Shown here one piece after another: positions 28,501 through 55,663 of a DNA stretch of 64,000 nucleotides (position 1 is its first letter; each line of letters starts with the position of its first letter). The DNA comes from Fidelibacterota bacterium (GTDB lineage Bacteria > Fidelibacterota > Marinisomatia > Marinisomatales > UBA1611). The position numbers were made by a program, and so were the translations under genes. The notes below the pieces were generated by a model. It did no database searches. It was given only the letters and a program-made list of their open reading frames with translations, and was not told the DNA's origin. Location: positions 1 through 64,000 of the forward strand of contig PAPB01000037.1 in assembly GCA_002708715.1 (NCBI GenBank), read 5' to 3'.

Positions 28501-29279
28501 CCTTTGCCATAAAAAATGATTTGATCCTCTGGATCAAATGAGCCATCTTCTTCTCCTTTAATAAGTAATGAAATTTCTTTGAGATTATCTGGGATAGGTT
28601 GATTTAATTCTTGAGTTCTAGATCGACCCAATTCATTGTTCATAAAAATAGAAATAGACCTTGGATCAATAATTGATATTTCTCCATAAGCATTAGATAA
28701 TAATTCGTAAGATATTGAGTAAACATCATCATTCTCTATAAAGAATTGGAACCATTTTCCTTCATATGTTGTAGTGGTCAGATTATTTATTCTTTGGTTT
28801 TTTAAAATCCATGATTTAGCAACATCCCAATTTATAATACGATTTTTTAAAAATTGTTTTTCAGATGCATTCGCAGTCCTATAACTTTTTCTAGTTTTCT
28901 GAAAATCAATAGAGATTTTTATTTTTTTAAAGTAATAATTTGTATCTGAAAATGGAGAAATACTTAAAGTTGCTATTTGTAAATTTTTTAGTTTTTGTTT
29001 GTTAATCCAATTAAAGCCAGATTGTTCATTATGCTTAGATTTAAAAGGAATTAAGGATTTGTTGAAATATTCAATATTTGTAGATGGTAGTTCATTATTT
29101 GGTAACCCTATAATTAGACTAGTGTTATATAGGTCTGCTTCTGTTAATGCGTCTATATGTAATTCTATAATAAGTTTTTGATTATTATTTTCAATTAATT
29201 TTTTTGAAACTGTTGCAAATAAAAAATCGATTGCAAATAATAATAATAATATATTATAGACTAATAATTGATTTAACAT
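25557..29279 (-). CDS. PorU-like C25 (gingipain-family) protease/sortase with FlgD-like C-terminal domain
   Basis: A 1240-residue secreted protein. It has a hydrophobic signal peptide (about residues 5-22), a long pro-region, and a C25 caspase-fold domain with the catalytic His in SYIGHGSPYQ (about residue 776) and Cys in VGTCSFGWFDDP (about residue 811). The LFGDPAM segment is typical of PorU. The C terminus has YNYPNPFTISTQFTF...GVYLYRLKA, a FlgD/T9SS-type sorting domain. In Bacteroidota, PorU is the type IX sortase that cleaves sorting domains and attaches cargo to lipopolysaccharide. A C25 effector protease is the alternative. No other T9SS genes are in the window. Confidence 0.83.
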   Translation of the reverse strand: MLNQLLVYNILLLLFAIDFLFATVSKKLIENNNQKLIIELHIDALTEADLYNTSLIIGLPNNELPSTNIEYFNKSLIPFKSKHNEQSGFNWINKQKLKNLQIATLSISPFSDTNYYFKKIKISIDFQKTRKSYRTANASEKQFLKNRIINWDVAKSWILKNQRINNLTTTTYEGKWFQFFIENDDVYSISYELLSNAYGEISIIDPRSISIFMNNELGRSRTQELNQPIPDNLKEISLLIKGEEDGSFDPEDQIIFYGKGASGFDIIQNNIEWHQNLYFNTNSCWLFIPDDINLRGKRILQEDQPETGLLIDYGILSDHIEIDITNLNASGLEWLSDPIAPGTSKPIIINLSKPKLGSTFNLIAKIKGNSNNGSSSSHEIKIFFNNLNGIQIGETINWSGNSFRTILANNQATNLINGTNIFYLLNSTTDPNSLPYLDFFEITYARELSYEENYTFFSPVQNQDIRFNFSGLKPDNINFWNITDHENIKMLNIDESNFSNVSNSTNHTKRFVLFNSDNIISIDNIQLKNNHQFNNLRQTNIQADYIIIGPDEFRTATTNLLELRNPAIYASLENIYTEFSAGNPDPMAIRSFIQWTQEQWIMPRPNNALLLGDGGYDYRNINGNSSIVVPTIQVQSNRSYATDDLLATTYGNIPEISTGRYPAKNIQEVYDFIEKVEEIETNPMFGPWRQKVTLIADDAARPEPNHGSIATGQSHTINSEEIANLIPSFINIEKLYMIEYPEVSDASAYGVIKPAATQALFNSLNSGTGIISYIGHGSPYQLAQEKLLDLNRGDINQINIDKTLPLWIVGTCSFGWFDDPLNESFAEELIRAKMNAAAMVISTTRPITVVGNERYTKNLFENIFYNGNVSNLSIGSILQSIKDGSSESQYFQLFGDPAMLVPLPKDTVLSLSITPDTLETLEKGTFYGLQNIISNDGIGYIHLIDADRSVTRDYEISSETYSLSFLLPGATLFRGKFSISNSNFEGTLRIPQDISYSNDPSKLLLYINNDKKDAIGIINSIPLIGGANTQDNQGPNIIFETSSGVRLEDGDHLTINNNLIIRISDPLGINLTNEPGHEIILTDLNNEETNNLTNKFYYDTNSIITGTINYPTNNNELNLKVKAWDNANNPNEKNIILYRTEINKLKIYNVYNYPNPFTISTQFTFELTKTADISIEIYTLGGKKIKSIKRNNSQIGFNIINWNGLDTFGDNIANGVYLYRLKATDENGANSFIGRCAKFK

Positions 29280-36992: not shown

Positions 36993-38033
36993 TTGATAAA
37001 AATAAAACTGTGGAGATTAAATATTAGTAAAACAAAAAAAATTGCTTTGATTGGAGGCGCTGGATTTATTGGTCATAATTTAGCTCTTTCATTAAAAGCA
37101 CAAGGCCACATGCCTATTATTATTGATAATCTTTCGGTAAATAATATTCTATCTTTTGCGAATATAGAAACTAAAGATAGAAAATTATATTGGTCTATAT
37201 TGAATAAAAGACTAGAGTTGCTACATAAGAACAAAATAGATGTAAATATTGAAGACGCTAGAAATTATAATGCTGTTTCTATGATCCTTAATGATTACAG
37301 TCCTGATATTATTATTCATTTAGCAGCTGTCTCACATGCTAATAAATCTAATAAAGATCCACATACAACTTTTGATCATAGCCTTAGGACTCTTGAAAAT
37401 GTTTTGGATATTTGTAATAATATGGGATCTAGATTTATATATTTTTCATCAAGTATGGTTTATGGAAATTTTTTAGATAGTTCTGTGACTGAAGACACTC
37501 AATGTAATCCTATTGGTATTTATGGTGCTTTAAAATATTCTGGTGAATTAATTATCAAAGCTTATCATAGGGTTTTTGATTTACCTTATACTATTATTAG
37601 GCCATCTGCGTTATATGGAAATCGTTGTGTAAGCCGTAGGGTTGGACAGATTTTTATTGAAAATGCTATTCAAGGTTTAGATATTAATATTCAAGGAGAT
37701 GGAACCAGCATGTTGGATTTTACTTATATTAATGATTTAACTGATGGACTTGGATTGGTTATAGATAACCCAAAAGCAATAAATGAAACTTTTAATCTTA
37801 CTTATGGTGAAGCTAGAAGCGTGCGAGCAATGTTGGAAATTTTACAAGAGCATTTTGATGGATTAAAAATTAATTATATTGATAAAGATTTATTATTGCC
37901 TGAAAGAGGAACTTTAAATATTGATAAAGCTCGAAATTTGATTGGTTATAAACCTAATTATTCACTTGACATAGGGTATCCAAAATATATCAAGTGGTAT
38001 AAAAAATTTTGGGAAACAATATCAAATTATTGA
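36993..38033 (+). CDS. NAD-dependent epimerase/dehydratase (nucleotide-sugar, extended SDR)
   Basis: An extended short-chain dehydrogenase acting on nucleotide sugars. The Rossmann start IALIGGAGFIGHNLALSL, the SSSMVYG strand, the YGALK catalytic Tyr/Lys pair (about residues 177-181) and RPSALYG are all seen. The length is 346 residues and the substrate cannot be read from sequence. The TTG start used here leaves a 15-residue leader. GGAG at 37012-37015 lies seven bases before an in-frame ATT (37023), which could be the real start. It opens the polysaccharide region just after tRNA-Sec. Confidence 0.85.
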   Translation: MIKIKLWRLNISKTKKIALIGGAGFIGHNLALSLKAQGHMPIIIDNLSVNNILSFANIETKDRKLYWSILNKRLELLHKNKIDVNIEDARNYNAVSMILNDYSPDIIIHLAAVSHANKSNKDPHTTFDHSLRTLENVLDICNNMGSRFIYFSSSMVYGNFLDSSVTEDTQCNPIGIYGALKYSGELIIKAYHRVFDLPYTIIRPSALYGNRCVSRRVGQIFIENAIQGLDINIQGDGTSMLDFTYINDLTDGLGLVIDNPKAINETFNLTYGEARSVRAMLEILQEHFDGLKINYIDKDLLLPERGTLNIDKARNLIGYKPNYSLDIGYPKYIKWYKKFWETISNY

Positions 38034-38059: not shown

Positions 38060-38995
38060 TCATATAAAGATATTTTTTAAATGCCAGCCGAAAATTTTTC
38101 GTAATTCATTCGGTGACCTTTTAAACTCTAAACCAAGCTCGATTTCTGCAATATTATAATGTGATTTATCATTATAATTTTCCCAAAGTAATTGCGGATA
38201 TAAACTTGAATAGAATTTATATGGATATTGTTCATTTAATGTGGGATCATTTTTTGCATTAATTAATAAGGAACGACCATATATGAAAACCTTTTTACGC
38301 ATTATTAAACTATAAAAGATTGCACTTGAAAATGATTCAGATGACACATATTCATGTTTATTAATGCATTTAATAAAATTAAATAAAAAATTGGGGTTAT
38401 TATCTCTATACCCCATAGTTACTACTGAGATTCCTTGATGTTTAAAAAGGTTCACAATTGTTTTATTTTCATATTCTCTCCAGCCTAGAGAAACGGTAAT
38501 AGATTTAAATAAAGGCAGAATTTTTTTTAAATCTTCAATATATCTTTTATGAATATCAATTGTATCATGAAAACCATCATGCTCTGATGTGTGCACTGGA
38601 AATAGGATTAGAGTCTTAGGTTTATAATTATTGTTAATATATAAATTTTTTGGCAGATAAAGAAATGGTGCGCCAATTGCCACAACATTTTTATAGCCAT
38701 ATTTAATACTCTTTTTCTTATTATATTTATTTATAACATAATATCTTTTAAGCTTTTCTTCTTTATTATGTAGAAAAGGATTGGCTGCAATACCATGTCC
38801 ATATGACCAACCATGTTGTACTTCACCATTAATTTTATAAGGTAGTATAGTTTTTGTATATTGTTTTAATATGTGATAATGACCATAATAAAGATTATCT
38901 ATATTAGTTTCCCAAAAATTATTTTGGAAAGGTTTTGGGATCTTTTTAATTTTTTTTTTCAGTAAATATAATTTTGTTTTTGTATTACTCAGCAA
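38060..38995 (-). CDS. Putative polysaccharide biosynthesis protein, GT-B-like
   Basis: A 311-residue protein I cannot assign to a named family. The segments EVQHGWSYGHGI, NVVAIGAPFLYLP, LILFPVHTSEHDGFHD and CINKHEYVSSESFSSAIFYSLIMRKKVFIYG recall the second half of CDP-glycerol-phosphotransferase or capsule-type GT-B enzymes. No signal peptide or membrane helix is seen. The only in-frame start is a TTG without a clear ribosome site. It is inserted on the minus strand between the epimerase and the sugar operon, so its context is surface polysaccharide synthesis. Confidence 0.6.
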   Translation of the reverse strand: MLSNTKTKLYLLKKKIKKIPKPFQNNFWETNIDNLYYGHYHILKQYTKTILPYKINGEVQHGWSYGHGIAANPFLHNKEEKLKRYYVINKYNKKKSIKYGYKNVVAIGAPFLYLPKNLYINNNYKPKTLILFPVHTSEHDGFHDTIDIHKRYIEDLKKILPLFKSITVSLGWREYENKTIVNLFKHQGISVVTMGYRDNNPNFLFNFIKCINKHEYVSSESFSSAIFYSLIMRKKVFIYGRSLLINAKNDPTLNEQYPYKFYSSLYPQLLWENYNDKSHYNIAEIELGLEFKRSPNELRKIFGWHLKNIFI

Positions 38996-39263: not shown

Positions 39264-39929
39264 ATGAATATTGCCATTATTATTCAAGCCAGAATGGAAT
39301 CAAGTCGTTTACCAAATAAAGTTTTAAAAAAAATTAACGATAAACCTTTATTAGAATATTTGATTGAACAGATACGCATTAAAAATGATGGATTACCTAT
39401 TATTATCGCTACTTCGAGGAGCATAACTGATGAAAAAATTATCGATTATTGCACAAATAATGATATTGAATTTTATCAAGGCAGTTTTCATAATGTAGCC
39501 TCACGATTTTTTAATATCATTAAAATAAATAACCTTGATTATTTTATTCGAATTTGTGCAGATAGTCCACTTTTTGATGGTGATCTTATTAGAAAATCTG
39601 TTGATTTAATTGATAATGAATTAGATCTCATTACAAATATCTACCCAAGGACTTTTCCGAAAGGTCAATCAGTAGAAATTATAAAATCAAAGACATTTAA
39701 AAATATTTTTCGAAACTTTTTTAAAAAATCTCATTTTGAGCATGTAACAAATTATTTTTATGAAAATATCGATAATTTTAAAATAAAAAGCTTAATAAAT
39801 AATACAAATATGGAACATGTAAATTTGGCTGTTGATACAAAAGCGGATTTTAAAAATGTTAAAAATATTATTTATAAAATGAAAAAACCCCATTATAAAT
39901 ATTCTTTTGAAGATCTATTAAAGTTATGA
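39264..39929 (+). CDS. SpsF-like cytidylyltransferase
   Basis: A 221-residue member of the CMP-sugar cytidylyltransferase superfamily (SpsF/NeuA-like). The nucleotide-binding N terminus IIIQARMESSRLPNKVLKKI and the metal-site segment RICADSPLFDGDLI are clear. Such enzymes activate nonulosonic acids as CMP sugars. It is the first gene of a tightly overlapping set that ends in a NeuB/SpsE-type synthase, which supports that role. The length and motif set are closer to SpsF than to NeuA. Confidence 0.8.
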   Translation: MNIAIIIQARMESSRLPNKVLKKINDKPLLEYLIEQIRIKNDGLPIIIATSRSITDEKIIDYCTNNDIEFYQGSFHNVASRFFNIIKINNLDYFIRICADSPLFDGDLIRKSVDLIDNELDLITNIYPRTFPKGQSVEIIKSKTFKNIFRNFFKKSHFEHVTNYFYENIDNFKIKSLINNTNMEHVNLAVDTKADFKNVKNIIYKMKKPHYKYSFEDLLKL

Positions 39930-40954
39930 GAAAATTCAATAAGAAGATTTTAAATGTTTCAGTAATAGGAATGGGCATTGGTGAAAAGCATGTTCAAATT
40001 TATTTAGAAAATATATATTGTAATCTGGTAAGTATATGTGAATTTGATATACAAAAATTAAAAAAATTAAAAAATAAATACCCTGAGGTAAAAATTTATG
40101 ATAATTCTCAGCATATATTTAATGATCCTAATATCGATTTAGTTTCGATAGCGAGTTATGATAATTATCATTCTGAACAGGTTATCGCTGCAATTAAAAA
40201 TAATAAACATGTTATGATTGAAAAACCTTTATGTTTAAATGAAAATGAATTTAAAAGAATTCATAGAACACATATTGCAAACAAGAGAATCAATATGTCC
40301 TCCAATTTTGTATTAAGGTCAAATGATAGATTTAAAAAAATTAAAAAAGAGATACATAGTAATGATTTTGGAGATATTTTATTTATTGATTGTGATTATT
40401 TGTGGGGAAGAAAAGAAAAGCTTTTTGGGTGGCGTGCAGATATGGACTTTTATTCAATAATATTAGGAGCAGCTATTCATATGATTGATTTAGTAATGTG
40501 GATGATGCAATCTAAGCCCAAAACCGTTTATGCAGCTGGCAATAAGATTGGTATGGAAGGTAGTAATATCAATAATAATTGTTTTGCAATCCTTATATTA
40601 AAATTTAATAATGGTGTTATCGCTAAGATTACTGGTAATGGAAGTTGTGTGCATCCTCATTTCCATGGTATTAAAATTTTTGGATCAAAACAAACAGCTA
40701 TTCATGATTTAGATGATGCGTATTTTTTAAATAAGTCTCAATCAGGTTTTAAAAGAAAAATGATAATTGAGCCATATCCTCAGAAGGAAACACGTAAGGA
40801 AATAATTAATAGTTTTGTAGATTCAATTGTGAATAGTCAATTAAATGCTCTTGTAACACAGCAAGATGTATACAATGTCATGTCTGTAGGTTTAGCTGCA
40901 GAAAAATCAATAAAAACACAAAAAGAGATTAATATAGATTATCTTCAATTATGA
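39926..40954 (+). CDS. Gfo/Idh/MocA-family oxidoreductase
   Basis: A 342-residue NAD(P)-dependent sugar oxidoreductase. It has an N-terminal Rossmann domain (VSVIGMGIGEKHVQIYLENI), EKPLCLNENEF at about residue 98 and a C-terminal alpha/beta domain (GAAIHMIDLVMWMM). In sugar pathways such enzymes (for example WlbA) oxidise C3 and feed a DegT aminotransferase, which is exactly the next gene. It overlaps both neighbours by four bases. Confidence 0.85.
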   Translation: MRKFNKKILNVSVIGMGIGEKHVQIYLENIYCNLVSICEFDIQKLKKLKNKYPEVKIYDNSQHIFNDPNIDLVSIASYDNYHSEQVIAAIKNNKHVMIEKPLCLNENEFKRIHRTHIANKRINMSSNFVLRSNDRFKKIKKEIHSNDFGDILFIDCDYLWGRKEKLFGWRADMDFYSIILGAAIHMIDLVMWMMQSKPKTVYAAGNKIGMEGSNINNNCFAILILKFNNGVIAKITGNGSCVHPHFHGIKIFGSKQTAIHDLDDAYFLNKSQSGFKRKMIIEPYPQKETRKEIINSFVDSIVNSQLNALVTQQDVYNVMSVGLAAEKSIKTQKEINIDYLQL

Positions 40955-42075
40955 AAAATATTTCTTTTTCTAGTCCAGATATTATTAATGAGGATATCCA
41001 AGCAGTCATTGAAGTGATCAAAAGTGGATGGTTAATTCATGGTAAATATTCAAAAACACTTGAAGAGCTCTTTTGTGAATTTACTGGAGCAAACTATGCG
41101 GCTACTGTATCTAATTGTACTGCTGGTTTACATCTAAGTTGTTTATCTGCAGGGTTTGGTAAAGGAGATGAAGTTATAATACCTGCTCAAACTCATACTG
41201 CGACTGCTCATGCAATTGAGTATACAGGAGCAAAACCAATTTTTGCTGATGTCGATACTATTTCTGGAAATATTTGTGTAGATGATTTAGAATCAAAATT
41301 AACTGAAAAAACTAAAGGAATTATTCCTGTGCATATGGCTGGATATCCATGTGACATGGAAAGAATAAAAAAGATATCTATCAATAATAATTTGATTTTA
41401 ATTGAAGATTGTGCTCATTCTATTGGTACAACATTTGATAATAAACATGTTGGTACTTTTGGTCAAGCTGGGTGTTTTTCTTTTTATCCTACTAAGCAAA
41501 TTACCACTGGAGAGGGAGGTATAGTAATTACAAATGAAAAAATTTTTATTGAAAAGATAAATAAATTAAAAGCGTTTGGAATAGATGCTCCACCAAAACA
41601 AAGATCAATGCCTGGTTTATATGATGTGAAAGAGTTAGGATATAATTATAGGATGACGGATTTTCAAGCTGCTTTAGGTGTGGGGCAAATGAAAAGATAT
41701 TCAACTAATCTTCAAATCAGGAAAAAGAATGCAAAGTTATATTGTGATTTATTAAAAAATGAAGATAAAATATTATTAAATAACTTTCATGATGATTGTT
41801 CATATTTTCTTTATCAAATCGTTTTGTCTCATGATGTAAATAGAGATCAGGTTTTATTATATTTAAAAGAGAATGGTATTGGAGTAAGTATTCATTATGC
41901 TAATCCTGTTCCTTTAATGAGTTATTATAAAAATAAATATGGTTATTCAAAGGGAAATTTTATTAATGCTGAATATTACTCAAACAAAAACATATCTTTA
42001 CCAGTGCATGCAAAGTTATCAAATGAAGATATTAAATATATTTGTAGAGTTATTAGTGCAGCACTTAGGCTTTAG
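40951..42075 (+). CDS. DegT/DnrJ/EryC1-family sugar aminotransferase
   Basis: A PLP enzyme that transfers an amino group to a keto sugar. The PLP Lys lies in FSFYPTKQITTGEGG (about residue 182), with EDCAHSIG for the cofactor Asp/His region and NYRMTDFQAALGVGQ. The 374-residue length is typical. Following a Gfo/Idh/MocA gene, it probably installs an amino group at the newly formed ketone, and the next gene could then formylate it. Confidence 0.9.
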   Translation: MKNISFSSPDIINEDIQAVIEVIKSGWLIHGKYSKTLEELFCEFTGANYAATVSNCTAGLHLSCLSAGFGKGDEVIIPAQTHTATAHAIEYTGAKPIFADVDTISGNICVDDLESKLTEKTKGIIPVHMAGYPCDMERIKKISINNNLILIEDCAHSIGTTFDNKHVGTFGQAGCFSFYPTKQITTGEGGIVITNEKIFIEKINKLKAFGIDAPPKQRSMPGLYDVKELGYNYRMTDFQAALGVGQMKRYSTNLQIRKKNAKLYCDLLKNEDKILLNNFHDDCSYFLYQIVLSHDVNRDQVLLYLKENGIGVSIHYANPVPLMSYYKNKYGYSKGNFINAEYYSNKNISLPVHAKLSNEDIKYICRVISAALRL

Positions 42076-42081
42076 AATATA

Positions 42082-43044
42082 ATGGATATAATTTTTTTTG
42101 GAAATGGAGCCCGTTCACTGCCATGTTTAAAAGTAATCAAAAACTCATCGCATACTATTAAAGCAATTATAACTCATCCAAAAATTGAGAGTAAATGGTT
42201 TGCTCAATTAAGTCAGATTGCGGAAATATCAAATATTCCTTTGTTTTCACCAAAAAACCCTAATGAAAAAGTTTTTGAAAATACATTGAAATTTTTTCAT
42301 GCAGACTTATTTATTTTAGCGGGATATGGGAAAATCCTAAAAAATAATATTATTCAAATACCAAAAATTATGTGTTTAAATCTTCATGGCGGTAAATTGC
42401 CAAAATATAGAGGATCTTCACCTATGAATTGGGCATTGATCAATGGAGAAGATTTTTTCACTTTATCTATAATACAACTTGTGAAATTAATTGATGGTGG
42501 TCCTGTTTTAATGGAAAAAACATTTGATATCAATGAGAATACTACGATAGTTGATTTACATAAAATTGCTAACCATGAATTTCCTAAAATGCTTGTTCAT
42601 GTTTTAGAAAATATTGAAAGCGATACATTAAAAATTTCAAAACAGGATGAAAAAAATGCTTCATACTATCCTATAAGAGTACCTGAAGATGGATTTATAT
42701 TGTGGGATGTATTTAATGCGAAAGAGATTCATAATCGTATACGAGCATTAACGGCTCCATATCCCTGTGCTTTTAGTTTTTTCCAAAATAAAAAAATAAA
42801 GTTTATAAGTTCAGAATTAAATAAGAAATCTTTTTTTGGAGAACCTGGAAGGATATATAAAATAAAAGATGATAGATTTTTAGTTTCTACAAAGGAAGGC
42901 TCTCTATGGATTACCGAAGCCTTTTTTGATGAAAGCAGGTTGCCCTTTTTACCTGTTGGAAATAGATATGAAAGTTTTAGTACGATTAAAGAGATTGGGT
43001 TAAATATCTACAAAAATAAAAATCTAGATGAAAATAAAAAATAA
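42082..43044 (+). CDS. Sugar N-formyltransferase (methionyl-tRNA formyltransferase family)
   Basis: A 320-residue formyltransferase-fold protein using N10-formyl-tetrahydrofolate. The catalytic triad is visible as Asn and His in LNLHGGKLPKYRG (about residues 100-102) and Asp in LIDGGPVL (about residue 137). A C-terminal domain follows (RIRALTAPYPCAF). The location between a sugar aminotransferase and a NeuB homologue argues for an amino-sugar formyltransferase like ArnA-N, VioF or QdtF and against housekeeping Fmt. Confidence 0.85.
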   Translation: MDIIFFGNGARSLPCLKVIKNSSHTIKAIITHPKIESKWFAQLSQIAEISNIPLFSPKNPNEKVFENTLKFFHADLFILAGYGKILKNNIIQIPKIMCLNLHGGKLPKYRGSSPMNWALINGEDFFTLSIIQLVKLIDGGPVLMEKTFDINENTTIVDLHKIANHEFPKMLVHVLENIESDTLKISKQDEKNASYYPIRVPEDGFILWDVFNAKEIHNRIRALTAPYPCAFSFFQNKKIKFISSELNKKSFFGEPGRIYKIKDDRFLVSTKEGSLWITEAFFDESRLPFLPVGNRYESFSTIKEIGLNIYKNKNLDENKK

Positions 43045-44038
43045 AGATACTAATGATAATGTATTGATAATTGCTGAGATTGGTAATAATCATGAGGGAG
43101 ATTTTTCTCTTGCTAAGGAAATGATTTATCTTGCTGCTGAATCTGGTGTTGATGCAGTAAAGTTTCAAACATTTAAAACAGAATCCTTTATTAGTACGTT
43201 AGACAATAAAAGATTTAAGCAATTAAAGTCTTTTGAGTTAACCTATGAGCAATTTAATGAACTTAGTATAATCGCAAAAAAACAAGGGTTGGTTTTTATA
43301 TCTACACCACTAGATATTGATACTGCAAAATTTTTACCAACTATAGTTGATGCTATAAAGATTTCATCGGGTGATAATAACTTTGTTCAATTATTAAGAA
43401 CAGTCTCCAAACTTAACAAACCTTTAATTTTATCTTCTGGTTTAATGAATCTTAAGCAAATAATAAAGTCTGTAAATATTATCCAAAATTCATCTAAAAA
43501 AATAAAAAATAAAGATGAATTAGCTATTCTGCATTGTGTCACTTCTTACCCTGTTGAGCCTGTAGATGCTAACCTTAGAGCAATTCAAACTTTATCTAAT
43601 ACTTTTGATTATACAATCGGTTATTCAGATCATACTATAGGGATTAATGCTGCTATTTCTGCTGTTAGTCTAGGTGCTAGAATAATTGAAAAACATTTTA
43701 CATCAGATCATAATTTTTCTGATTTTCGGGATCATCAACTTTCTGCTGATTTGGATGAAATGACAAATATGGTATCTATAATTCGTGAAATTGAGCAGAT
43801 GTTTGGAACGGGGGAAAAAAATCTTCAAAAATCAGAAGAAGATATTATTAAAGCTGTTAGAAGATCTATTGTTGCGAAAAAAGATCTTCTAAAAGGTCAC
43901 ATTATAGGATATAATGATTTAACTTATCTTCGACCAGGTGATGGTTTAGAACCTGCGCAGGAAATACAAATTATTGGAAAAAAATTAAAACACAATGTAG
44001 CCATGGGTACTAAAATTTTATTAAAAAGTATAGAATAA
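43028..44038 (+). CDS. NeuB/SpsE-family nonulosonic acid synthase
   Basis: Condenses phosphoenolpyruvate with a six-carbon N-acyl sugar to form a nine-carbon acid. It has an N-terminal TIM-barrel (IAEIGNNHEGDFSLAKEM, DAVKFQTFK, HCVTSYPV, IGYSDHT, EKHFT) and a C-terminal SAF antifreeze-like domain (SIVAKKDLLKGHIIGYNDL) in 336 residues. Whether it makes a sialic, legionaminic, pseudaminic or other acid cannot be told from sequence. It starts 17 bases inside the formyltransferase gene, so the two are translationally coupled. Confidence 0.92.
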   Translation: MKIKNKDTNDNVLIIAEIGNNHEGDFSLAKEMIYLAAESGVDAVKFQTFKTESFISTLDNKRFKQLKSFELTYEQFNELSIIAKKQGLVFISTPLDIDTAKFLPTIVDAIKISSGDNNFVQLLRTVSKLNKPLILSSGLMNLKQIIKSVNIIQNSSKKIKNKDELAILHCVTSYPVEPVDANLRAIQTLSNTFDYTIGYSDHTIGINAAISAVSLGARIIEKHFTSDHNFSDFRDHQLSADLDEMTNMVSIIREIEQMFGTGEKNLQKSEEDIIKAVRRSIVAKKDLLKGHIIGYNDLTYLRPGDGLEPAQEIQIIGKKLKHNVAMGTKILLKSIE

Positions 44039-44131: not shown

Positions 44132-44620
44132 TCAGTTATCATTAGAATTATTTAATTTTTTTAAATCTTCGACATCATGTTTATTGAAATATAATTCAAT
44201 AAATGAATTAAGAAGTGTTTTTGATAAGTTTACATTCTTATGATCAATGGTTTGCTTACATTTCATTGTGGAAACAAGCAATTTGTGTAAGGTGGCAACT
44301 TTTTCTGAGTAGTTTTTTGAATTTTCTTTAATACGTTGAGTTAAAAAATATTCTGAACATATTTCTTGAATATTTTGAGCATGTTCCTCCTTTTTTACTA
44401 TCCATCTATTAATTTGATTTTGTGCTAAAGGATCTGATTGGTTAGATAAATCTTTTATTTTTTGCATAGCTTTAGAAATTGTTTTTAGATCTTCATTAAT
44501 TATAGTTATTCTTAATTTATCATCATAGATACCACAAGGTACTTGGCAGTGACCAAATACTAACTCTTGCATCATTAAAATAATTAGAATAAATACAAAT
44601 TTTATTTTTAAGTATTTCAT
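44132..44620 (-). CDS. sodN: Nickel superoxide dismutase with Sec signal peptide
   Basis: Dismutates superoxide at a nickel site built by the N-terminal hook of the mature protein. The precursor (162 residues) has a signal peptide of about 23 residues ending VFG, followed by HCQVPCGIY. The hook residues His1, Cys2 and Cys6 of the HCxxPCGxY motif are therefore all present if signal peptidase cuts after Gly23. Other NiSODs carry a short pro-sequence removed by SodX; none is seen here. The mature part is longer than the classic Streptomyces enzyme. AAAGG precedes the ATG. It is a lone minus-strand gene between polysaccharide blocks. Confidence 0.93.
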   Translation of the reverse strand: MKYLKIKFVFILIILMMQELVFGHCQVPCGIYDDKLRITIINEDLKTISKAMQKIKDLSNQSDPLAQNQINRWIVKKEEHAQNIQEICSEYFLTQRIKENSKNYSEKVATLHKLLVSTMKCKQTIDHKNVNLSKTLLNSFIELYFNKHDVEDLKKLNNSNDN

Positions 44621-45825: not shown

Positions 45826-46551
45826 ATGATAGATATCCATAATCATATTTTTCCAAACATTGATGATGGTTCTAAATCTAAAGAGATGTCCATTGAAATG
45901 TTAAAAAATGCGTATAAACAAGGAATTACTGATGTAGTAAATACTGTACACTATCAACATCCTATGTTTCAAGATATTGATTTATCCTTTGATAGTATTT
46001 ATAAAGTTTCTCAGGATCTGCAGAATGAAATTAATCAAATAGGTATAAATATAAAGATTCATATTGCATCTGAAGTATTTTACTATGATAATTTATTAAA
46101 GATTAAAAATAATAAATTGACTACTATGGGTAATGGTAAATACATGTTAATTGAATTTCACCCAAATAATATACCTGTAAGTCAAAAAGAAGTTCTTTAC
46201 AACTTAAAGATAGAAGGAGTAACTCCAATAATCGCTCATCCTGAACGTTATAGGCAAGTTCAAAAAGATATTAATTATGTATATGATTGGTTAAACTCTG
46301 GCTGTCTTATTCAAATTGATGCTGGTAGCTTAATAGGCTTACTTGGAGAGAATTGTATGAAAACTTCTAGGTTGATTATTCAAGAGAATTTATGTCAAAT
46401 TTTGGCATCTGATGCCCATAATAATGCAAAAAGGAATTTTTGTTTAAAAGATGGTCATATTTATACTAAAAGTATTTTAGGAGATAAAGCGGATCTTTTA
46501 GTATATCATTATCCTAAAGTTATAATTGAGGGAGGTAACATTTCTTTATAG
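45826..46551 (+). CDS. CpsB/CapC-type PHP tyrosine phosphatase
   Basis: A 241-residue PHP-fold metal phosphatase that dephosphorylates BY-kinases of polysaccharide systems. MIDIHNHIFPNIDDGSKS, AHPERYRQVQKD and ASDAHNN hold the metal ligands. The usual TPH motif reads TVH here, with the His kept. The partner kinase lies two genes downstream, which supports a phosphorylation cycle controlling chain length or export. Confidence 0.88.
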   Translation: MIDIHNHIFPNIDDGSKSKEMSIEMLKNAYKQGITDVVNTVHYQHPMFQDIDLSFDSIYKVSQDLQNEINQIGINIKIHIASEVFYYDNLLKIKNNKLTTMGNGKYMLIEFHPNNIPVSQKEVLYNLKIEGVTPIIAHPERYRQVQKDINYVYDWLNSGCLIQIDAGSLIGLLGENCMKTSRLIIQENLCQILASDAHNNAKRNFCLKDGHIYTKSILGDKADLLVYHYPKVIIEGGNISL

Positions 46552-46591
46552 TGAAAATATTTTAAGATATTTTCTTGGACTAAAAAATAAT

Positions 46592-47098
46592 ATGAAAAAA
46601 ATACATAATATTAATTTCTTCATCTTTTTTATTTGTTTTACATTTTTAAAGAGTCAATCAGAAGATAATAAATTACAACCTTTTGAAGATTTTCAAATGT
46701 CCAATGAAAGGTATGTGCCTACTGGAGATGGTAAATTTTATATAAAAGTAAATATTTGGGGGTCTGTAGGAAAAGCAGGAGTAATCCAAGTCTATGATGG
46801 TATAGATTTAGCATCATTATTATCTTTGGTTGGAGGTCCAGATGAGAAAGCAAATTTAAAAAAAGTGAAATTATATAGAGAAAAACCTGATGAAAATGGT
46901 CAATTAGTATATATGATTAATTTAGATCATTTTGTAAAAACGGGTGATAGATCTAAATTTATTAAAATAAAACCAAATGATACGATAATAGTACCTGCAA
47001 AACTATCAATGGTTGTAATACAGCAAATTGGTACGATAAATACACTATTTTCACTTTTGAGTCTTTATATACAATTAAATAGTCTTTTCAGTTCATGA
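46592..47098 (+). CDS. SLBB-domain export protein (minimal Wza-like)
   Basis: The likely start is the ATG at 46592, giving 168 residues with a signal peptide (MKKIHNINFFIFFICFTFLKSQ). The ORF-track start at 46526 is a TTG inside the phosphatase gene and is less likely. One SLBB domain is present (FYIKVNIWGSVGKAGVIQV...LASLLSLVGGPDEKANLKKVKLYR), ending in IKIKPNDTIIVP, followed by a hydrophobic C terminus. The N-terminal poly_export domain of Wza is absent. It overlaps the kinase gene by four bases. Confidence 0.8.
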   Translation: MKKIHNINFFIFFICFTFLKSQSEDNKLQPFEDFQMSNERYVPTGDGKFYIKVNIWGSVGKAGVIQVYDGIDLASLLSLVGGPDEKANLKKVKLYREKPDENGQLVYMINLDHFVKTGDRSKFIKIKPNDTIIVPAKLSMVVIQQIGTINTLFSLLSLYIQLNSLFSS

Positions 47099-49464
47099 AG
47101 AATAATCATTTAGCTTTTAAAGAGGATAATCACAATTATCATAATATAGAAAATGAACTATACCTTAAGGATTATTTTTTATTACTAAGGATTCATTTAA
47201 GAAAATTAATCTATTGTGTAATATTATTTCTTTTAATTGGATTTTATACGACCATTAATAAAACTCCGATGTACAGTTCGAAGGGTACTATGATTGTCAG
47301 AGTTAGTCCAGGGGCTAATACTGTTGCAGATATAACCAAACAAAAAAATAATAACCAAATAAGAAATAAAATAGAGTTATTACGTTCTAGGACTTTGGCT
47401 GAAGATGTAGTTAGGTCTTTTTATGATTCAAAAAGAAGGAATAATCTTTTTTTATTTGGTACAAGAAAATATTATCCTAAGGGACAAAGGATTAGAACTT
47501 TATTTAAAGAAATTTTTACTTTAGGGCTCTATGATGCTCAAGATGCATTGAAAGTTTCTACTCTTGAGGGACCGCTAACCTATGAACGTCTTGATGATTT
47601 TTCTAAAAGAATTAAAAATCATCTTACTGTTAAACATATTCCAAATACAAATTTAATTGAAGTTAGTTATCGTTCAAAAAATGCAGATGAAGCGCGACGT
47701 ATAGTAAATAGAACTATGGGAATATTTTCTGTTAAGGATAAGGAATGGTCAAATCAATATGCCTTAAATTCAGTTTCATTTTTAGATTCATTGGTTAATG
47801 TACAAGAAAAGATTCTCCAAAATACCGATAGTCTAAAAATGGACTTTTTGTTAGAAAATAAATTGCATAGTATGGAAGCAAAATCAGATGATATTATTAA
47901 AAGAATTAATGGATACGAAGGTGAATTATATAATATCAAAACGCAGAAAAGCATTAATAAACAAAAAATTGAATTTCTTAGTTCTAAGCTATCTTCTGAA
48001 GAAAAAGATCTTGCTGATAAAATAGTTGGGAATATTAATATACAATTATCTGCACTTAGAGATGAGGCAGCAAAACTTGAATCGCAAATTATTACAAATT
48101 CTAGTATTTATGGGGAAACACATGAATTTGTGCAAGATTTAAAAAAGAAATTAAATAATTTGACAGTTGCAATAGATGAAAGAGTGACAAAACTTGCATT
48201 AAAAGGTATAGCACCGCAAGATCCTTTGCGGGAAAGACAGGAGATTATTTCAGAAATATTAAATTTAGAAAATAATATTTATTATTTGAATATTACTGAA
48301 AATGAAACCCAAAAAGAGTTGGATAGATTTAATGAAAAGTTAAGATCTATACCAGAAACAAAGATGCAAATGGATCGCTTTGAAAGACAGGAGATGATAT
48401 TACGTGATTATTATTTAGCCTTAATAAATAAACTCGAAGAGACAAAGCTTAATAATGCAATTTTGGTAGGTGATGTCCGTATAGTAGATTTAGCAAAATT
48501 ACCAAAAATACCATACAGCCCTAATCATCAAAAAGATATTTTGATGTTTTTATTTTTTGGTATTGCAATTGGACTTTTTATTATTTTTGTTATTGAAGTA
48601 TTGGATAGTTCAATAAAAACAATTGATGAAATTGAAAAATATGATAAGAATGTAATTGGTGTCATCCCAGCGATTGGGAAGATGAAATCACAAAATTTTA
48701 TAATGAGATATTTCGATGATAAAACTGTAAATATTTTAGGTGGTGAAAAAGGTATAAAAAGAAAGATTATAACAAAGGATAATCCTAAATCACCGATTTC
48801 TGAATCTTACAGAGGATTACGTACAAATATTTTATTATCCAATGATAAAGAAATTAAATCTATGTTAGTATCTAGCGCTGGACCAGGGGAAGGTAAGACT
48901 ACAACAGTTGCTAATTTAGCTATTACTTTTGCTAATTTAGGTAAGAAGACACTCCTTGTTGATACAGATTTGCGTAGGCCTGTTATTCATTCAGTATTTG
49001 AATTGAAACGAGATCCTGGTGTAACAACATTTTTATCTGGGCAAACTGATGATTATAAAACTTTATTACAAGCTGGAGAAGTTGATAATCTGTTTATTAT
49101 GACTTCAGGTATTATCCCTCCTAATCCTTCTGAATTACTAGGTTCAAAAAGAATGATTCATTTAGTTAGAGAATTAGAAGACGATTTTGATATGGTTTTA
49201 TTTGATAGTCCACCTTTGGTGGCTGTTACAGATGCTAATATGATTTCAAGGGAGATTGATCGCATATTACTTGTTATTAAAGCTGGTCAAACTGATAAAA
49301 AAGCCTTTCATCATACTATGATGAACTTAAAGAATATTAATGCTCCACTAGAAGGAATAGTGATGAATGCGGTTACAAGCAAGAGTAATTATGGTTCATA
49401 TTATTACTATTACTATCATCAGTATTATCATTATTATAGTTCTAGTGAGGATGATGAAAAATAA
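47095..49464 (+). CDS. Wzc-like polysaccharide co-polymerase with BY-kinase domain
   Basis: A 789-residue fusion of a Wzz/GumC-type chain-length domain and a bacterial tyrosine autokinase. Membrane helices lie at about residues 38-58 and 479-500, with a long periplasmic coiled coil between. The kinase has Walker A SSAGPGEGKTTT (about residue 595), LLVDTDLRRP (Walker A') and DMVLFDSPP (Walker B). The C-terminal cluster NYGSYYYYYYHQYYHYY supplies the phosphorylation sites. The next gene begins inside its end. Confidence 0.93.
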   Translation: MKNNHLAFKEDNHNYHNIENELYLKDYFLLLRIHLRKLIYCVILFLLIGFYTTINKTPMYSSKGTMIVRVSPGANTVADITKQKNNNQIRNKIELLRSRTLAEDVVRSFYDSKRRNNLFLFGTRKYYPKGQRIRTLFKEIFTLGLYDAQDALKVSTLEGPLTYERLDDFSKRIKNHLTVKHIPNTNLIEVSYRSKNADEARRIVNRTMGIFSVKDKEWSNQYALNSVSFLDSLVNVQEKILQNTDSLKMDFLLENKLHSMEAKSDDIIKRINGYEGELYNIKTQKSINKQKIEFLSSKLSSEEKDLADKIVGNINIQLSALRDEAAKLESQIITNSSIYGETHEFVQDLKKKLNNLTVAIDERVTKLALKGIAPQDPLRERQEIISEILNLENNIYYLNITENETQKELDRFNEKLRSIPETKMQMDRFERQEMILRDYYLALINKLEETKLNNAILVGDVRIVDLAKLPKIPYSPNHQKDILMFLFFGIAIGLFIIFVIEVLDSSIKTIDEIEKYDKNVIGVIPAIGKMKSQNFIMRYFDDKTVNILGGEKGIKRKIITKDNPKSPISESYRGLRTNILLSNDKEIKSMLVSSAGPGEGKTTTVANLAITFANLGKKTLLVDTDLRRPVIHSVFELKRDPGVTTFLSGQTDDYKTLLQAGEVDNLFIMTSGIIPPNPSELLGSKRMIHLVRELEDDFDMVLFDSPPLVAVTDANMISREIDRILLVIKAGQTDKKAFHHTMMNLKNINAPLEGIVMNAVTSKSNYGSYYYYYYHQYYHYYSSSEDDEK

Positions 49465-50302
49465 AAGAGATTGGGATTTAATAATATCTTCCGAAAGACC
49501 TTGGCTAGCCCTTGAATTAAAAGATGTTTGGCTTTATAGAGATTTAATTTCTTTCTTTGTTAGAAGAGATATATTAACTGAATATAAACAAACAATATTA
49601 GGTGTATTATACTATATCATAAATCCAGTATTTGGTACTCTAATAAAGGTTCTTATATTTAGTAAAATAGCAAAATTATCTACGGATGGGATACCAGACT
49701 TTTTATTTTACTTTTCTGGGGGATTATTATGGACATATTTTGCAAAATGTTTATCTATAGGTAGTGGAGTTTTTTTAAGTAATCGAGATTTATATTCACA
49801 GGTTTATTTCCCAAGATTATCTGTTCCAATTGCTAATAATATTACTGAATTATTTAGATCTTCAATTCAAATTATATTATTTACAATATTTTACATATAT
49901 TTTCAAATCAATGGCTCCAATATGAACCCTTCATGGGGATTAATATTATTACCCGTTATTTTTCTACAATGTAGTTTGTTAGGATTTGGTTTTGGCTTAA
50001 TATTATCATCATTGACAACAAGATACAGGGATTTAAATTTTTTAGGTGGATATATTAATTCATTTTGGATGTATATTAGTCCTATTGTATATCCTTTATC
50101 AGTAATTCCCGAAAAATGGCATTTTATTCTAAGTTTTAATCCTATGGTAGGTTTAGTTGAATTATTAAGGTTTTTATTATTTGGGCAGAGCTCTTTTCAT
50201 TTAGCACAAATAACAAATGGATTATTCACTACGATATTGTTGTTAATAATTGGTTTATTATTATTTAATAAAACAGAAAAAACTTTTTTAGATACTGTTT
50301 GA
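49454..50302 (+). CDS. ABC-2 type polysaccharide export permease (Wzm-like)
   Basis: The membrane subunit of an O-antigen/capsule exporter, with six predicted helices. It has ILTEYKQTILGVLYYIINPVFG near the N terminus and YRDLNFLGGYINSFWMYISPIVYP later. I place the start at the ATG at 49454 (282 residues), just after GTGAGG. The longer ORF-track frame would read through the tyrosine-rich tail of the kinase gene. Adjacent ATGs at 49451 and 49454 cannot be separated. It overlaps the kinase gene by 11 bases. Confidence 0.88.
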   Translation: MKNKRDWDLIISSERPWLALELKDVWLYRDLISFFVRRDILTEYKQTILGVLYYIINPVFGTLIKVLIFSKIAKLSTDGIPDFLFYFSGGLLWTYFAKCLSIGSGVFLSNRDLYSQVYFPRLSVPIANNITELFRSSIQIILFTIFYIYFQINGSNMNPSWGLILLPVIFLQCSLLGFGFGLILSSLTTRYRDLNFLGGYINSFWMYISPIVYPLSVIPEKWHFILSFNPMVGLVELLRFLLFGQSSFHLAQITNGLFTTILLLIIGLLLFNKTEKTFLDTV

Positions 50303-50308
50303 CTTATA

Positions 50309-51574
50309 ATGAGATCAGTCATAAAAATTGAGAATTTATATAAAGAGTATCGTTTGGGTACTATTGGGTATGCGACACTTCGAGAAGATTTACAAATGTT
50401 GTTTGCTTCAATACAAGGTAAGCCTGACCCAAATTCGATCATTGGCAGTGAGAATATTGAAAAAAATACAAATAGAATTTTAGCTTTAAACAACTTAAAT
50501 CTTGATGTAGAACAAGGTGAAAGGTTAGCCATTGTTGGAGCAAATGGAGCAGGTAAATCTACCTTGTTAAAAGTTATTTCGAGAATATCAGCTCCATCAA
50601 AAGGTACCGTAAAAATAAAAGGTAGAATTGCAAGCTTAATCGCTCTAGGTACTGGATTTCATGCAGAGCTTACTGGAAGAGATAATATATATCTTAATGG
50701 TGCTATATTAGGTTTAAGGAAGAAAGAAATAGATAATAAATTCCAGAAAATTATTAATTTTGCTGGAATAAATAAATTTTTAGATACTCCAGTCAAGAGA
50801 TATTCTTCTGGAATGTATGTAAGACTTGGTTTTTCAGTCGCTGCTCATTTAGACCCAGATATTTTAATAACAGATGAAGTTTTGGCCGTTGCTGATTTAG
50901 AGTTTAGAAAAAAAAGTCTTGAAAGATTAAACCAAATATCTGCTGAAGGTAAAACTATAATATTTGTATCACATAATTTAAATAGTGTGAAAAAATTGTG
51001 TGATAAAGGAATTTTACTAGATAAAGGAACAATATTATTAAAAGATAAAATTGAAAATGTCTTATCTGAGTATATTGCTTTAAATAAAAAAAGGATTATT
51101 TATTCAAAGAATCATCCAAAAGATAATCATATTGATTCTATTAAAGTCATTGGTGTTGATATCATTAATCATAATAAAAATTTAGAAGATGTATTTCATG
51201 TTAATGAGAAAATTGGAATAAATATTACTTTTGAAGTTAAAAAACAGATAAGTGATACTTTTACTGAGATTGAATTATTATCTTCATCAAAAATTCATAT
51301 TTTTAGTTCTATTGATAAAAATCATTCCATTTTTGATAAAGTAGGAATTATGAGTAGGACTGTATGGATTGGACCAAATATATTAAATAAAGGTCTTTAT
51401 TTTATTAATATTAATCTGTTATCATCAATTGGGGATAAGATTAAAAGGTTCCTTGTTATTGATAATGCGGCAAGTTTTGAAACTATTTTTCCTAATAATG
51501 GAACAACCTTAAAAAATACTTTTCCAGATAAACGTGAGGGTTTAATTGCTCCAAAACTTACATGGACTAGTTAA
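50309..51574 (+). CDS. ABC transporter ATPase for polysaccharide export (Wzt-like) with C-terminal domain
   Basis: A 421-residue protein. Its nucleotide-binding domain has Walker A GANGAGKST (residues 77-85), signature YSSGMYVRLGF, Walker B ILITDEVLAVAD and switch His in VSHN. Residues of about 265-421 form an extra beta domain like the Wzt C-terminal carbohydrate-binding domain, which in O-antigen systems recognises the chain terminus. It follows the permease by six bases. Confidence 0.93.
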   Translation: MRSVIKIENLYKEYRLGTIGYATLREDLQMLFASIQGKPDPNSIIGSENIEKNTNRILALNNLNLDVEQGERLAIVGANGAGKSTLLKVISRISAPSKGTVKIKGRIASLIALGTGFHAELTGRDNIYLNGAILGLRKKEIDNKFQKIINFAGINKFLDTPVKRYSSGMYVRLGFSVAAHLDPDILITDEVLAVADLEFRKKSLERLNQISAEGKTIIFVSHNLNSVKKLCDKGILLDKGTILLKDKIENVLSEYIALNKKRIIYSKNHPKDNHIDSIKVIGVDIINHNKNLEDVFHVNEKIGINITFEVKKQISDTFTEIELLSSSKIHIFSSIDKNHSIFDKVGIMSRTVWIGPNILNKGLYFININLLSSIGDKIKRFLVIDNAASFETIFPNNGTTLKNTFPDKREGLIAPKLTWTS

Positions 51575-51616: not shown

Positions 51617-52603
51617 GTGAAAAATTATTTATATAGATTAAAAAAAAGGATGTGGCCTAAATTAGTTATTTTATGTTATCATCGAGTTAAGAATTATAAA
51701 TCTGATCCAGTAAATATTACAGTCTCTAATGAAAATTTTTTAAATCAGATTAAATTTTTAAAATACAATGCTAAAATAATTCATCCTCAGCAGTTATTTG
51801 ATTCATTAAAGCATAGACAAAACCTTCCAAAACGTTCAGTGTTATTAACATTTGATGATGGGTACTCTAGTTATGGCGAGACTATGCAAACTTTAATTGA
51901 TAATTCTATTTCTGCAATTTTTTTTATATCTTCAAGAAAATATAAATTTTGGTGGGATGTTTTATCTTCTAGATTATTAGAAGCTAAAACTATTAAGGAT
52001 ATAGATTATAAAATATTTAATAAATTAATAAAAATGGCAGGGGGAAATTTTAAGTTAGAAAAAGAATTAGACATCAAAGCATTATCAAAGATAAATCAAT
52101 GGAAAATTGAAGATCCAAATTTCCCTTATAATAGATGCAGGGCTTATAAAATCATTGCAAAAAAAATGGATGAAATTAATCCCTATGAAAAAAATGAATT
52201 TTTTTTTATGATTAATAATATTACAAAGGAAAAAAGAAATTTTTCTTATTTATTTAATAATAATTTGATTAAATATCATACAATTGGCGCACATACAATC
52301 GGCCATTATGATTTAGCTAACTTATCTTATGAAAATCAAAAAGAAGAAATAGAGGGCAATAAGTCATTTCTAGAAACTCATATTAAAGAAAAAGTGAATG
52401 TTTTTTCTTATCCATTTGGTATGCAATATAATTATAATGATGATACAATTAATTTAGTTAAAAATAATTTCCAATTTGCTTTTTCAGGTTTTCAAGGATT
52501 AGTACACAAAGATTCAAATATGTTTGAGTTGCCTAGGTTTTTAGTAAGAGATTGGTCTAAAAATGAGTTTCAAGTGAGATTGAATAAATTTTTTAATATT
52601 TAA
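51617..52603 (+). CDS. Polysaccharide deacetylase family protein
   Basis: A 328-residue NodB-type carbohydrate esterase. SVLLTFDDGYSSYGETM (about residues 74-90) supplies the metal Asp pair and IGAHTIGHYDL the His motif. FSYPFGMQYNYNDDTINLV is a late conserved segment. No signal peptide is seen, so it probably acts in the cytoplasm or at the membrane on lipid-linked or nucleotide-activated sugar. It starts with GTG. Confidence 0.88.
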   Translation: MKNYLYRLKKRMWPKLVILCYHRVKNYKSDPVNITVSNENFLNQIKFLKYNAKIIHPQQLFDSLKHRQNLPKRSVLLTFDDGYSSYGETMQTLIDNSISAIFFISSRKYKFWWDVLSSRLLEAKTIKDIDYKIFNKLIKMAGGNFKLEKELDIKALSKINQWKIEDPNFPYNRCRAYKIIAKKMDEINPYEKNEFFFMINNITKEKRNFSYLFNNNLIKYHTIGAHTIGHYDLANLSYENQKEEIEGNKSFLETHIKEKVNVFSYPFGMQYNYNDDTINLVKNNFQFAFSGFQGLVHKDSNMFELPRFLVRDWSKNEFQVRLNKFFNI

Positions 52604-54598: not shown

Positions 54599-55663
54599 AT
54601 GCAGAAATTGTCTCATCAAAATATGCTTTTAATAGGTCGCAATTGGAGTACGCGAGGAAATAATAATGATTTTGAACATTTTTTAAATTTTTTTCCTGGT
54701 TCTATATCCTCAACAAGTAAAGAATTAAATAGCTTTGATAATAGATTTTTTCGATGTGTAAAAAATAAAACATTGAATAGTTGTTACTCTTCATTGAGTG
54801 TTGCGCTAGAGTATAATGCTTTTATTAAATTTATTAATCATGATATAAAGTTGGTCCATTATTGGTTTGGAGACCATGATTATTATTATGGATATTGGTT
54901 TAAGAGAATTTTTGGGGCAAAAATTGTAATTAATCTTTTTTTTTCATTAGAAGAGCTTCAAAGACGTATGCCAAATAAATTTCATTTACAAAATGCTGAT
55001 TTAATAACATGTTCTGGGAAAGCTCAGCTTGAGTATTTAAAACAATTTATTGATAAAAAGAAGTTAGCTTATTTACCTCTCGGAGTTGATACAAATTTTT
55101 TTACTTTACCTAAAAATAATAATTACCGAGATAAAGATTTAATAATTTGTATAGGTAATAATCGAAGAGATTATAAAATATTAAAAAAAGTTTATTTAAG
55201 GTTAAAATCAATCAAACCAAATATTAAATTAAAATTAGCTGGATCAGAGCCAGGTAAATCATTTTTTACTGATTTACCTGAAGTAGAATTTTTTCCTTTC
55301 CTTGATGATCTTAAGTTCAGAAAACTATACAGAAAAGCTAGTCTATTAGTATTGCCTCTTTTAGAAGGAGGGTCTAGTCAAACATTAAATGAAGCGCTTG
55401 CTTGTGGTCTCCCTATTATAACTAATAAATTTCCAAATCTATCTGACTATACAAAAACAAATGCTGTGATTCAACACACACCAGGTGATTATATAGGAAT
55501 GAGCGATACTTGTCTTGAAGTTCTAGATAATAAAAAAAAACATCTTGAAATGTCTAATGCAGCAAGACGTCATATTTTAAAATTTGATTTTGTTAACATA
55601 AAAGACAAACTAATAAATATTTATTCTGATTATTTAGATCTTAATATTGTGGTGGATAACTAA
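54599..55663 (+). CDS. Family 4-type glycosyltransferase
   Basis: A 354-residue GT-B enzyme. The C-terminal donor half has ADLITCSGKAQLEYL, LAYLPLGVDTNFF and LLEGGSSQTLNEALACGLPIITN, where the E-x7-E-type motif is partly kept. The acceptor half is divergent. The last base of its stop is the first base of the next ATG. Confidence 0.85.
   Translation: MQKLSHQNMLLIGRNWSTRGNNNDFEHFLNFFPGSISSTSKELNSFDNRFFRCVKNKTLNSCYSSLSVALEYNAFIKFINHDIKLVHYWFGDHDYYYGYWFKRIFGAKIVINLFFSLEELQRRMPNKFHLQNADLITCSGKAQLEYLKQFIDKKKLAYLPLGVDTNFFTLPKNNNYRDKDLIICIGNNRRDYKILKKVYLRLKSIKPNIKLKLAGSEPGKSFFTDLPEVEFFPFLDDLKFRKLYRKASLLVLPLLEGGSSQTLNEALACGLPIITNKFPNLSDYTKTNAVIQHTPGDYIGMSDTCLEVLDNKKKHLEMSNAARRHILKFDFVNIKDKLINIYSDYLDLNIVVDN

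Follow-up and report, generated by a model that had tools for sequence, protein, structure and literature searches.

A candidate six-gene cassette for a CMP-nonulosonate outside the sialic, legionaminic and pseudaminic acid gene sets, with predicted N-formylation in a Fidelibacterota bacterium

Which sugar is made by a tight cluster of carbohydrate genes that looks like a nonulosonic acid operon and matches none of the usual ones? This question is raised by a locus of a Fidelibacterota bacterium, lying on a stretch of 64,000 nucleotides (contig PAPB01000037.1 of assembly GCA_002708715.1, positions 1 to 64,000), hereafter called the window. The locus encodes an SpsF-type cytidylyltransferase, a Gfo/Idh/MocA oxidoreductase (Gfo), a DegT aminotransferase, a formyltransferase and a NeuB/SpsE-type synthase. 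The initial annotation had described these as a five-gene set for a possibly formylated sugar, distinct from the sialic (Neu), legionaminic (Leg) and pseudaminic (Pse) acid pathways. Judging from sequence comparisons, we consider it probable (roughly 0.6) that a dedicated six-gene cassette, composed of SpsF, Gfo, DegT, a short-chain dehydrogenase/reductase (SDR), an N-acyltransferase and NeuB, makes a cytidine monophosphate (CMP)-activated nonulosonate outside the Neu, Leg and Pse gene sets, and that the product is N-formylated in this organism.

The five open reading frames (ORFs) at 39264-44038, all on the + strand, were confirmed by their coordinates and Pfam domains, and their spacing is operon-like, as had been claimed: three junctions overlap, by 4, 4 and 17 bases, and at the fourth a gap of 6 bases is left. 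However, the number five has to be corrected, since the functional set comprises at least six genes. The overlooked member is the SDR (36993-38033), which is contiguous with the other genes in a sister species and in Alphaproteobacteria, and which in the window is split from them by the gene of a 311-aa protein. A single-sequence AlphaFold model of that protein (predicted local distance difference test [pLDDT], 42) was too poor for structure search, as was the model of Gfo (pLDDT, 57). The window NeuB is the sole NeuB in the window genome, which is 89% complete.

Looking for the gene order elsewhere, as the initial annotation had advised, recovered it with the SDR added. In a sister species of the same genus (G001; genome 86% complete), the order SpsF-Gfo-DegT-SDR-GNAT-NeuB-formyltransferase-deacetylase was observed at the corresponding genomic position, recognized by its shared upstream genes. 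The first six of these genes stand in identical order on a plasmid of Azospirillum brasilense, where they are annotated as NTP transferase, Gfo/Idh/MocA, DegT, NAD(P)-dependent oxidoreductase, GNAT and N-acetylneuraminate synthase family protein; the window SDR is 64% identical to the sister copy and 53% to that of A. brasilense. An SDR search of 385 alphaproteobacterial genomes returned relatives in 22 of them, ten at 53-61% identity and twelve near 37-41%, and 399 sampled Pseudomonadota gave two at the higher level. The gene set is not due to chance, since it is repeated with its order unchanged in a second phylum.

In most close loci, the order is SpsF-Gfo-DegT-SDR-acyltransferase-NeuB, the genes being spaced by tens of bases, and AsnB and an N-acetyl-sugar amidotransferase come next; the SpsF-type gene opens the cassette in most close relatives. 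NeuB, Gfo and SpsF were present in 18/18 loci compared, the window included, and AsnB and DegT in 17/18, counts that are conditioned on the SDR because the close relatives were chosen via this protein. The more distant loci retain the block Gfo-DegT-SDR-spsF, and on contigs of sufficient length NeuB lies close by. Exceptions to the order include a formyltransferase placed after NeuB (L109) and scattered genes (L110). A NeuB search of 245 genomes of the window's phylum returned the sister species as the only close relative; the cassette therefore looks laterally spread. A scan of genome contigs with NeuB alone gave zero relatives, a second scan, made with a Gfo alignment of two rows, yielded nothing beyond the sister species and distant Gfo proteins, and phage records gave three weak NeuB matches.

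We also observed that a third member of the genus (G002, L060) carries at this chromosomal site a Pse-like set, consisting of PseB, PseG, a NeuB of the PseI clade and an SpsF-containing fusion, and therefore the site appears to swap nonulosonate cassettes. A small protein of ~113-139 aa, starting like MKFxEKxPPRxF, lies beside the N-acetyl-sugar amidotransferase in 11 of the 18 loci (e.g., L051:3885-4226 and L139:14757-15143); it had no Pfam match and was not found in the window.

The acyltransferase varies across the cassettes: it is a GNAT, a short formyltransferase (L051, L108, L109 and L116) or an ArnA/Fmt-like formyltransferase (the window and L124), and in L112 an ArnA/Fmt-related formyltransferase stands beside Gfo. 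The cassette GNATs resemble WecD, with up to 66 bits, under the cut-off. As for the window formyltransferase, its nearest relative is the L124 enzyme (44% identity), which there occupies the acetyltransferase's position. Since the window enzyme likewise stands where relatives have an acetyltransferase, formyl would replace acetyl in a true substitution rather than a lone oddity; PseJ, found in place of PseH, is a precedent for this exchange. The earlier remark that an acetyltransferase is not seen thus applies to the window cassette, with its formyltransferase, but not to most relatives, which hold an acetyltransferase at that position.

The window formyltransferase falls with the other cassette formyltransferases in a clade supported at 99/95, outside the 100/99 clade of Fmt that contains the genome's own Fmt (G000:C22, L062), and its identification as Fmt is ruled out by this tree. 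It carries the motifs NLHGG, SPMNW and DGG, keeps the Asn-His-Asp catalytic set and is close to ArnA. Its best equivalog models are ArnA and fmt, both under cut-off, and the match to PseJ (PDB 6ci2) reaches only 21.6 bits. Its separation from Fmt, its catalytic motifs and its sugar gene context suggest sugar N-formylation in a nonulosonic-acid-type pathway, as proposed initially. A 7-formamido nonulosonate has been reported from the marine Pseudoalteromonas distincta, according to a citation in PMC7281560.

The short formyltransferase adjoins a polysaccharide deacetylase in L051, L108 and L109 (PF01522 confirmed in L051 and L109; such a neighbor is suspected also in L116 and L119). This suggests either N-deacetylation followed by N-formylation or, as for ArnA/ArnD, the addition and removal of a formyl group. 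Other NeuB clusters that pair formyltransferase and Gfo/Idh/MocA genes were seen on a plasmid of Halorussus caseinilyticus (L137), an archaeal cluster that also holds a PIG-L deacetylase and NeuC, and in Azospirillum lipoferum 4B (L133); from these, formylated nonulosonates may be wider than known.

Next, the NeuB phylogeny was considered, using as references four NeuB-family enzymes of solved structure together with Pse and Leg synthases labelled by their gene context. The cassette NeuBs form two supported subgroups (12 and 7 rows), which group together (92/99) with one long-branched extra row, and a single clade for all of them was not rejected (p, 0.513). Joining the window and sister NeuBs to the Pse synthases was rejected by the approximately unbiased (AU) test (p, 0.0117), as was joining them to Leg (p, 0.0005; only two Leg references, labelled by gene context), and the window NeuB is thereby excluded as a plain PseI or LegI. 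Compared with the known types, then, no firm grouping was obtained. As the deep NeuB branches are weak, an "own type" means here neither Leg nor Pse, and a distant Neu link is possible. The nearest equivalog model is NeuB_NnaB (311 of 399.7 bits). Residues Glu17, His223 and the SAF-domain Arg302 of the window NeuB align with Glu25, His236 and Arg314 of Neisseria NeuB. Arg314 contacts the N-acetyl group of N-acetylmannosamine, and its conservation suggests that the substrate of the window NeuB is a 2-acylamino sugar.

A nucleotide-sugar 4,6-dehydratase requires, next to a conserved Thr/Ser, one residue acting as acid, typically Asp, and one acting as base, which is Glu or Lys (PMC8987622). In our local controls these positions read TDE (RffG), TSE (LegB and ArnA) and TDK (PseB), and in the cassette SDR they read SSM, with SST in the distant group. 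Because the dehydratase acid/base pair is absent while the Tyr and Lys are kept in the cassette copies, the SDR looks epimerase-like, with the caution that Pal of Bacillus thuringiensis shares the Met at the SSM place. The SDR scores 18.6 against the PseB model (cut-off, 407.75) and 88 bits against LegB (cut-off, 475); these scores, far under cut-off, together with SSM and the missing acid residue, led us to reject it as a LegB or PseB dehydratase. The initial statement that a 4,6-dehydratase is not seen therefore stands for the cassette and fails for the genome as a whole, since a FlaA1/PglF-type dehydratase (PF02719) lies on the same contig, at ~79 kb. Dehydratases of this type occur in 12/13 cassette genomes; the one on the window contig is fused to a sugar transferase, lies beside its own DegT aminotransferase and could feed the cassette in trans.

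The claim that a hydrolysing epimerase is not seen was borne out: a search for NeuC/LegG-type enzymes in the window genome gave a single PF02350 protein, a non-hydrolysing WecB (337 bits; NeuC, 84). No PseG-type hydrolase was found in this genome (89% complete) at 1e-8, and neither family was found in the cassette genomes G001, G489 and G341. A hydrolase hidden in the cassette was also rejected, as no hydrolase-like family recurs over the 18 loci. With no cassette dehydratase, no hydrolase found and a NeuB rejected from both Leg and Pse, the pathway fits no standard Neu, Leg or Pse set, in agreement with the initial annotation.

As for the remaining enzymes, two C-terminal domain models match Gfo besides GFO_IDH_MocA, and it is 51% identical to the sister copy. 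The cassette copies keep the EKP lysine and the GxxxH histidine, as in dehydrogenases, and for this reason Gfo is not favored as an NAD-dependent glycosidase replacing the hydrolase. The cassette DegTs form one clade (98/97), and their window member has PseC as best equivalog model (348 bits; cut-off, 423.5). Its top solved relative is QdtB, which is a C3 enzyme. The likeness of the cassette enzymes to PseC/ArnB, WecD and ArnA makes C4 the likeliest aminated carbon, although this is a weak assignment. The cytidylyltransferase is under all equivalog cut-offs, with 96 bits to the solved "Cytidylyltransferase" 6oew; for SpsF as the activating enzyme, there is genetic support in Bacillus subtilis (PMC7439481).

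From the observed gene content, conserved order, clade membership and active-site motifs, we infer the reactions, sugar positions and step order as follows. Gfo would oxidize a hexosamine derivative to a keto sugar, which DegT would aminate, most likely at C4. The new amine would be N-formylated by the window formyltransferase, or acylated by a WecD-like acetyltransferase in the relatives, and the SDR would invert one center as an epimerase. NeuB may then condense the six-carbon sugar with phosphoenolpyruvate, and SpsF may add CMP. The sequence of oxidation, amination, formylation, condensation and activation set out in the initial annotation is plausible. The sugar would enter a capsule- or O-antigen-like polysaccharide whose genes follow downstream. 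Some Alphaproteobacteria carry the cassette in flagellar loci together with Maf. A more specific proposal, which we hold only tentatively and as somewhat improbable, is that Gfo replaces the 4,6-dehydratase, giving a 5,7-diamino-3,5,7-trideoxy-nonulosonate that keeps the 9-hydroxyl and is made without a known nucleoside diphosphate (NDP)-sugar hydrolase. This product would be 7-formamido in the window and 7-acetamido in the relatives, and the sugar would either never be nucleotide-bound or be released by an unrecognized cassette enzyme.

Several observations weigh against a dedicated pathway of this kind. All 18 compared loci were picked via the SDR, and L125 is without DegT between Gfo and the SDR. 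The order is rearranged in L108, where Gfo and GNAT have moved, and in more distant loci. All window family scores are under the curated NCBIfam equivalog cut-offs, and the 89% completeness of the genome limits the absence of hydrolases. Joining the window and sister NeuBs to Neisseria NeuB was not rejected (p, 0.115; long branch), even if the tree does not group them. Finally, the C4 assignment is weak because the PseC model is also the best match of another DegT on the same contig. An alternative is an ordinary Leg- or Pse-like pathway with steps in trans, in which a FlaA1/PglF-type dehydratase encoded elsewhere would give a 4-keto-6-deoxy sugar and the cassette DegT and formyltransferase a 2,4-diamido-trideoxy hexose, with Gfo and SDR as tailoring enzymes and a 9-deoxy, 7-formamido Leg/Pse isomer as product. 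Such a route would agree with PF02719 dehydratases in 12/13 cassette genomes, one on the window contig, and with the 7-formamido compound of P. distincta cited in PMC7281560. Nevertheless, we regard it as unlikely: the window-contig dehydratase has its own aminotransferase next to it, as PglF/PglE-like pairs do, the cassette genome G489 gives no PF02719 match at 1e-40, the hydrolases were not found in the genomes named above, and NeuB joins neither Leg nor Pse.

The cassette enzymes might also act after condensation, NeuB and SpsF making a simple nonulosonate whose side chain (C7 or C8) would be oxidized and aminated by Gfo and DegT and then N-formylated, much as in the synthesis of 8-amino-3-deoxy-D-manno-octulosonic acid (8-amino-Kdo, Kdo8N) or in C8 epimerization by EpaA/EpaB. 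EpaA, in which CTP_transf_3 is joined to an aldo-keto reductase, indeed turns Pse into 8-epi-Pse together with the SDR EpaB (PMC12053666), and the solved DegT relatives include the 8-amino-Kdo transaminase (154 bits), but it is outscored by QdtB, ArnB and PseC-type transaminases, and cassette genomes without PF02350 (G001, G489, G341 and G301) would still need a source of hexose for NeuB, which makes this scheme quite doubtful. We give very little credit to two pathways lying side by side, where Gfo, DegT, SDR and formyltransferase would supply the same polysaccharide with an N-formyl amino sugar of no relation to the nonulosonate, to which only SpsF and NeuB would belong. Gfo and DegT pairs commonly make amino sugars, L120 and L121 have Gfo-DegT-SDR-spsF and NeuB on opposite strands, and additional copies of DegT and SpsF occur in some loci; against this, the interleaved, near-overlapping order is kept across phyla, and a cassette-specific group of NeuB accompanies it in 18/18 loci.

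The features of the locus and its surroundings are collected in Table 1. Glycosyltransferase genes also lie downstream of the cassette within the window, and past its end the contig continues with more glycosyltransferases, an O-antigen-ligase-type protein and the FlaA1/PglF-type dehydratase. Maf lies beside the cassette in two alphaproteobacterial loci (L120 and L121), with FlgK confirmed in L120; Maf enzymes transfer nonulosonates to flagellin (PMC4065374 and PMC11339370). Directly after the NeuB gene, a nickel superoxide dismutase-like protein is encoded at 44132-44620 on the - strand (PF09055, 102 bits; TIGR02753, 44 bits with cut-off 90). Farther upstream, at 25557-29279 (- strand), there is a gingipain-type Peptidase C25 protein (1240 aa), perhaps a type IX secretion-like cargo, whose C-terminal part shows a weak FlgD-Ig-like match under cut-off.

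Table 1. Cassette genes and neighboring features in the window
Feature	Position	Strand	Evidence
NDP-sugar extended SDR of the cassette, epimerase-like	36993..38033	+	motif SSSMVYG ... YGALK; identity to cassette SDRs
311-aa protein splitting the SDR from the other cassette genes	38060-38995	-	no Pfam match
SpsF/KdsB-type cytidylyltransferase, proposed CMP-nonulosonate synthetase	39264..39929	+	CTP_transf_3 PF02348, 72 bits
Gfo/Idh/MocA oxidoreductase, putative sugar dehydrogenase supplying the aminotransferase	39926..40954	+	PF01408, 67 bits
DegT/PLP (pyridoxal phosphate) sugar aminotransferase	40951..42075	+	DegT_DnrJ_EryC1 PF01041, 381 bits
Putative sugar N-formyltransferase of ArnA/Fmt fold in a separate clade, at the acetyltransferase's position	42082..43044	+	Formyl_trans_N and _C
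NeuB/SpsE-type nonulosonate synthase with SAF domain	43028..44038	+	PF03102, 227 bits; PF08666
CpsB-type, SLBB export, Wzz/Wzc-type and ABC-2 permease proteins, capsule/O-antigen export	45826..50302	+	PF19567, SLBB, Wzz/GNVR, ABC2_membrane
ABC transporter ATPase, polysaccharide export	50309..51574	+	PF00005; weak Wzt C-terminal PF14524
Polysaccharide deacetylase, possible link to N-deacetylation/formylation	51617..52603	+	PF01522
Two AsnB-type amidotransferases	55663-57531, 57642-59495	+	PF00733

Many bacteria are coated by nonulosonic acids, which influence recognition by phages and hosts and are typed by gene content. If the proposed pathway is right, a conserved cassette of Neomarinimicrobiota and Alphaproteobacteria that falls outside all three gene-content rules, and has neither the dehydratase nor the hydrolase on which they depend, would leave a class of surface sugars mis-predicted or unseen. 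The exchange of acetyl- and formyltransferase at one position would offer a natural test of acyl-group choice, and because culturable Azospirillum has the acetyl version, the chemistry of the cassette is testable. In open-licence papers, no description of this gene set was found; apparently, it is an undescribed variant of nonulosonate biosynthesis.

How, then, does the cassette compare with known systems? The legionaminic sps pathway of B. subtilis (SpsM-C-D-G-E-F; PMC7439481) shares with it the SpsF-type enzyme, DegT, the acetyltransferase of the cassette relatives and a NeuB-type synthase. However, it needs the SpsM 4,6-dehydratase and SpsG, neither of which is in the cassette, it is without Gfo, and SpsE falls outside the cassette NeuB group. 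The Pse pathway (PseB-C-H-G-I-F, with its PseJ variant) has in common the aminotransferase, an N-acyltransferase exchangeable between acetyl and formyl, the synthase and the cytidylyltransferase, whereas the cassette has no PseB motif and no PseG, and its NeuB does not go with PseI (p, 0.0117). Similarly, the overall logic and enzyme classes of LegB-C-H-G-I-F are shared, but the SDR has SSM where LegB has TSE, a LegG-type hydrolase is missing, and NeuB with Leg was rejected (p, 0.0005). Escherichia coli ArnA and ArnB have the same folds, serve the formylation of a 4-amino sugar nucleotide and, in ArnA, share the P-x-NW motif, but in the two trees the cassette enzymes stand in clades of their own. 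The enzymes of the Shewanella sfm cluster differ from those of the cassette apart from NeuB. EpaA/EpaB (PMC12053666) likewise bring a CTP_transf_3 protein and an oxidoreductase into nonulosonate biosynthesis, but use an aldo-keto reductase and a short SDR, with no Gfo and no DegT. Overall, these comparisons suggest that the cassette belongs to the NeuB-based nonulosonate pathways and probably works like those of Leg and Pse while standing outside both families.

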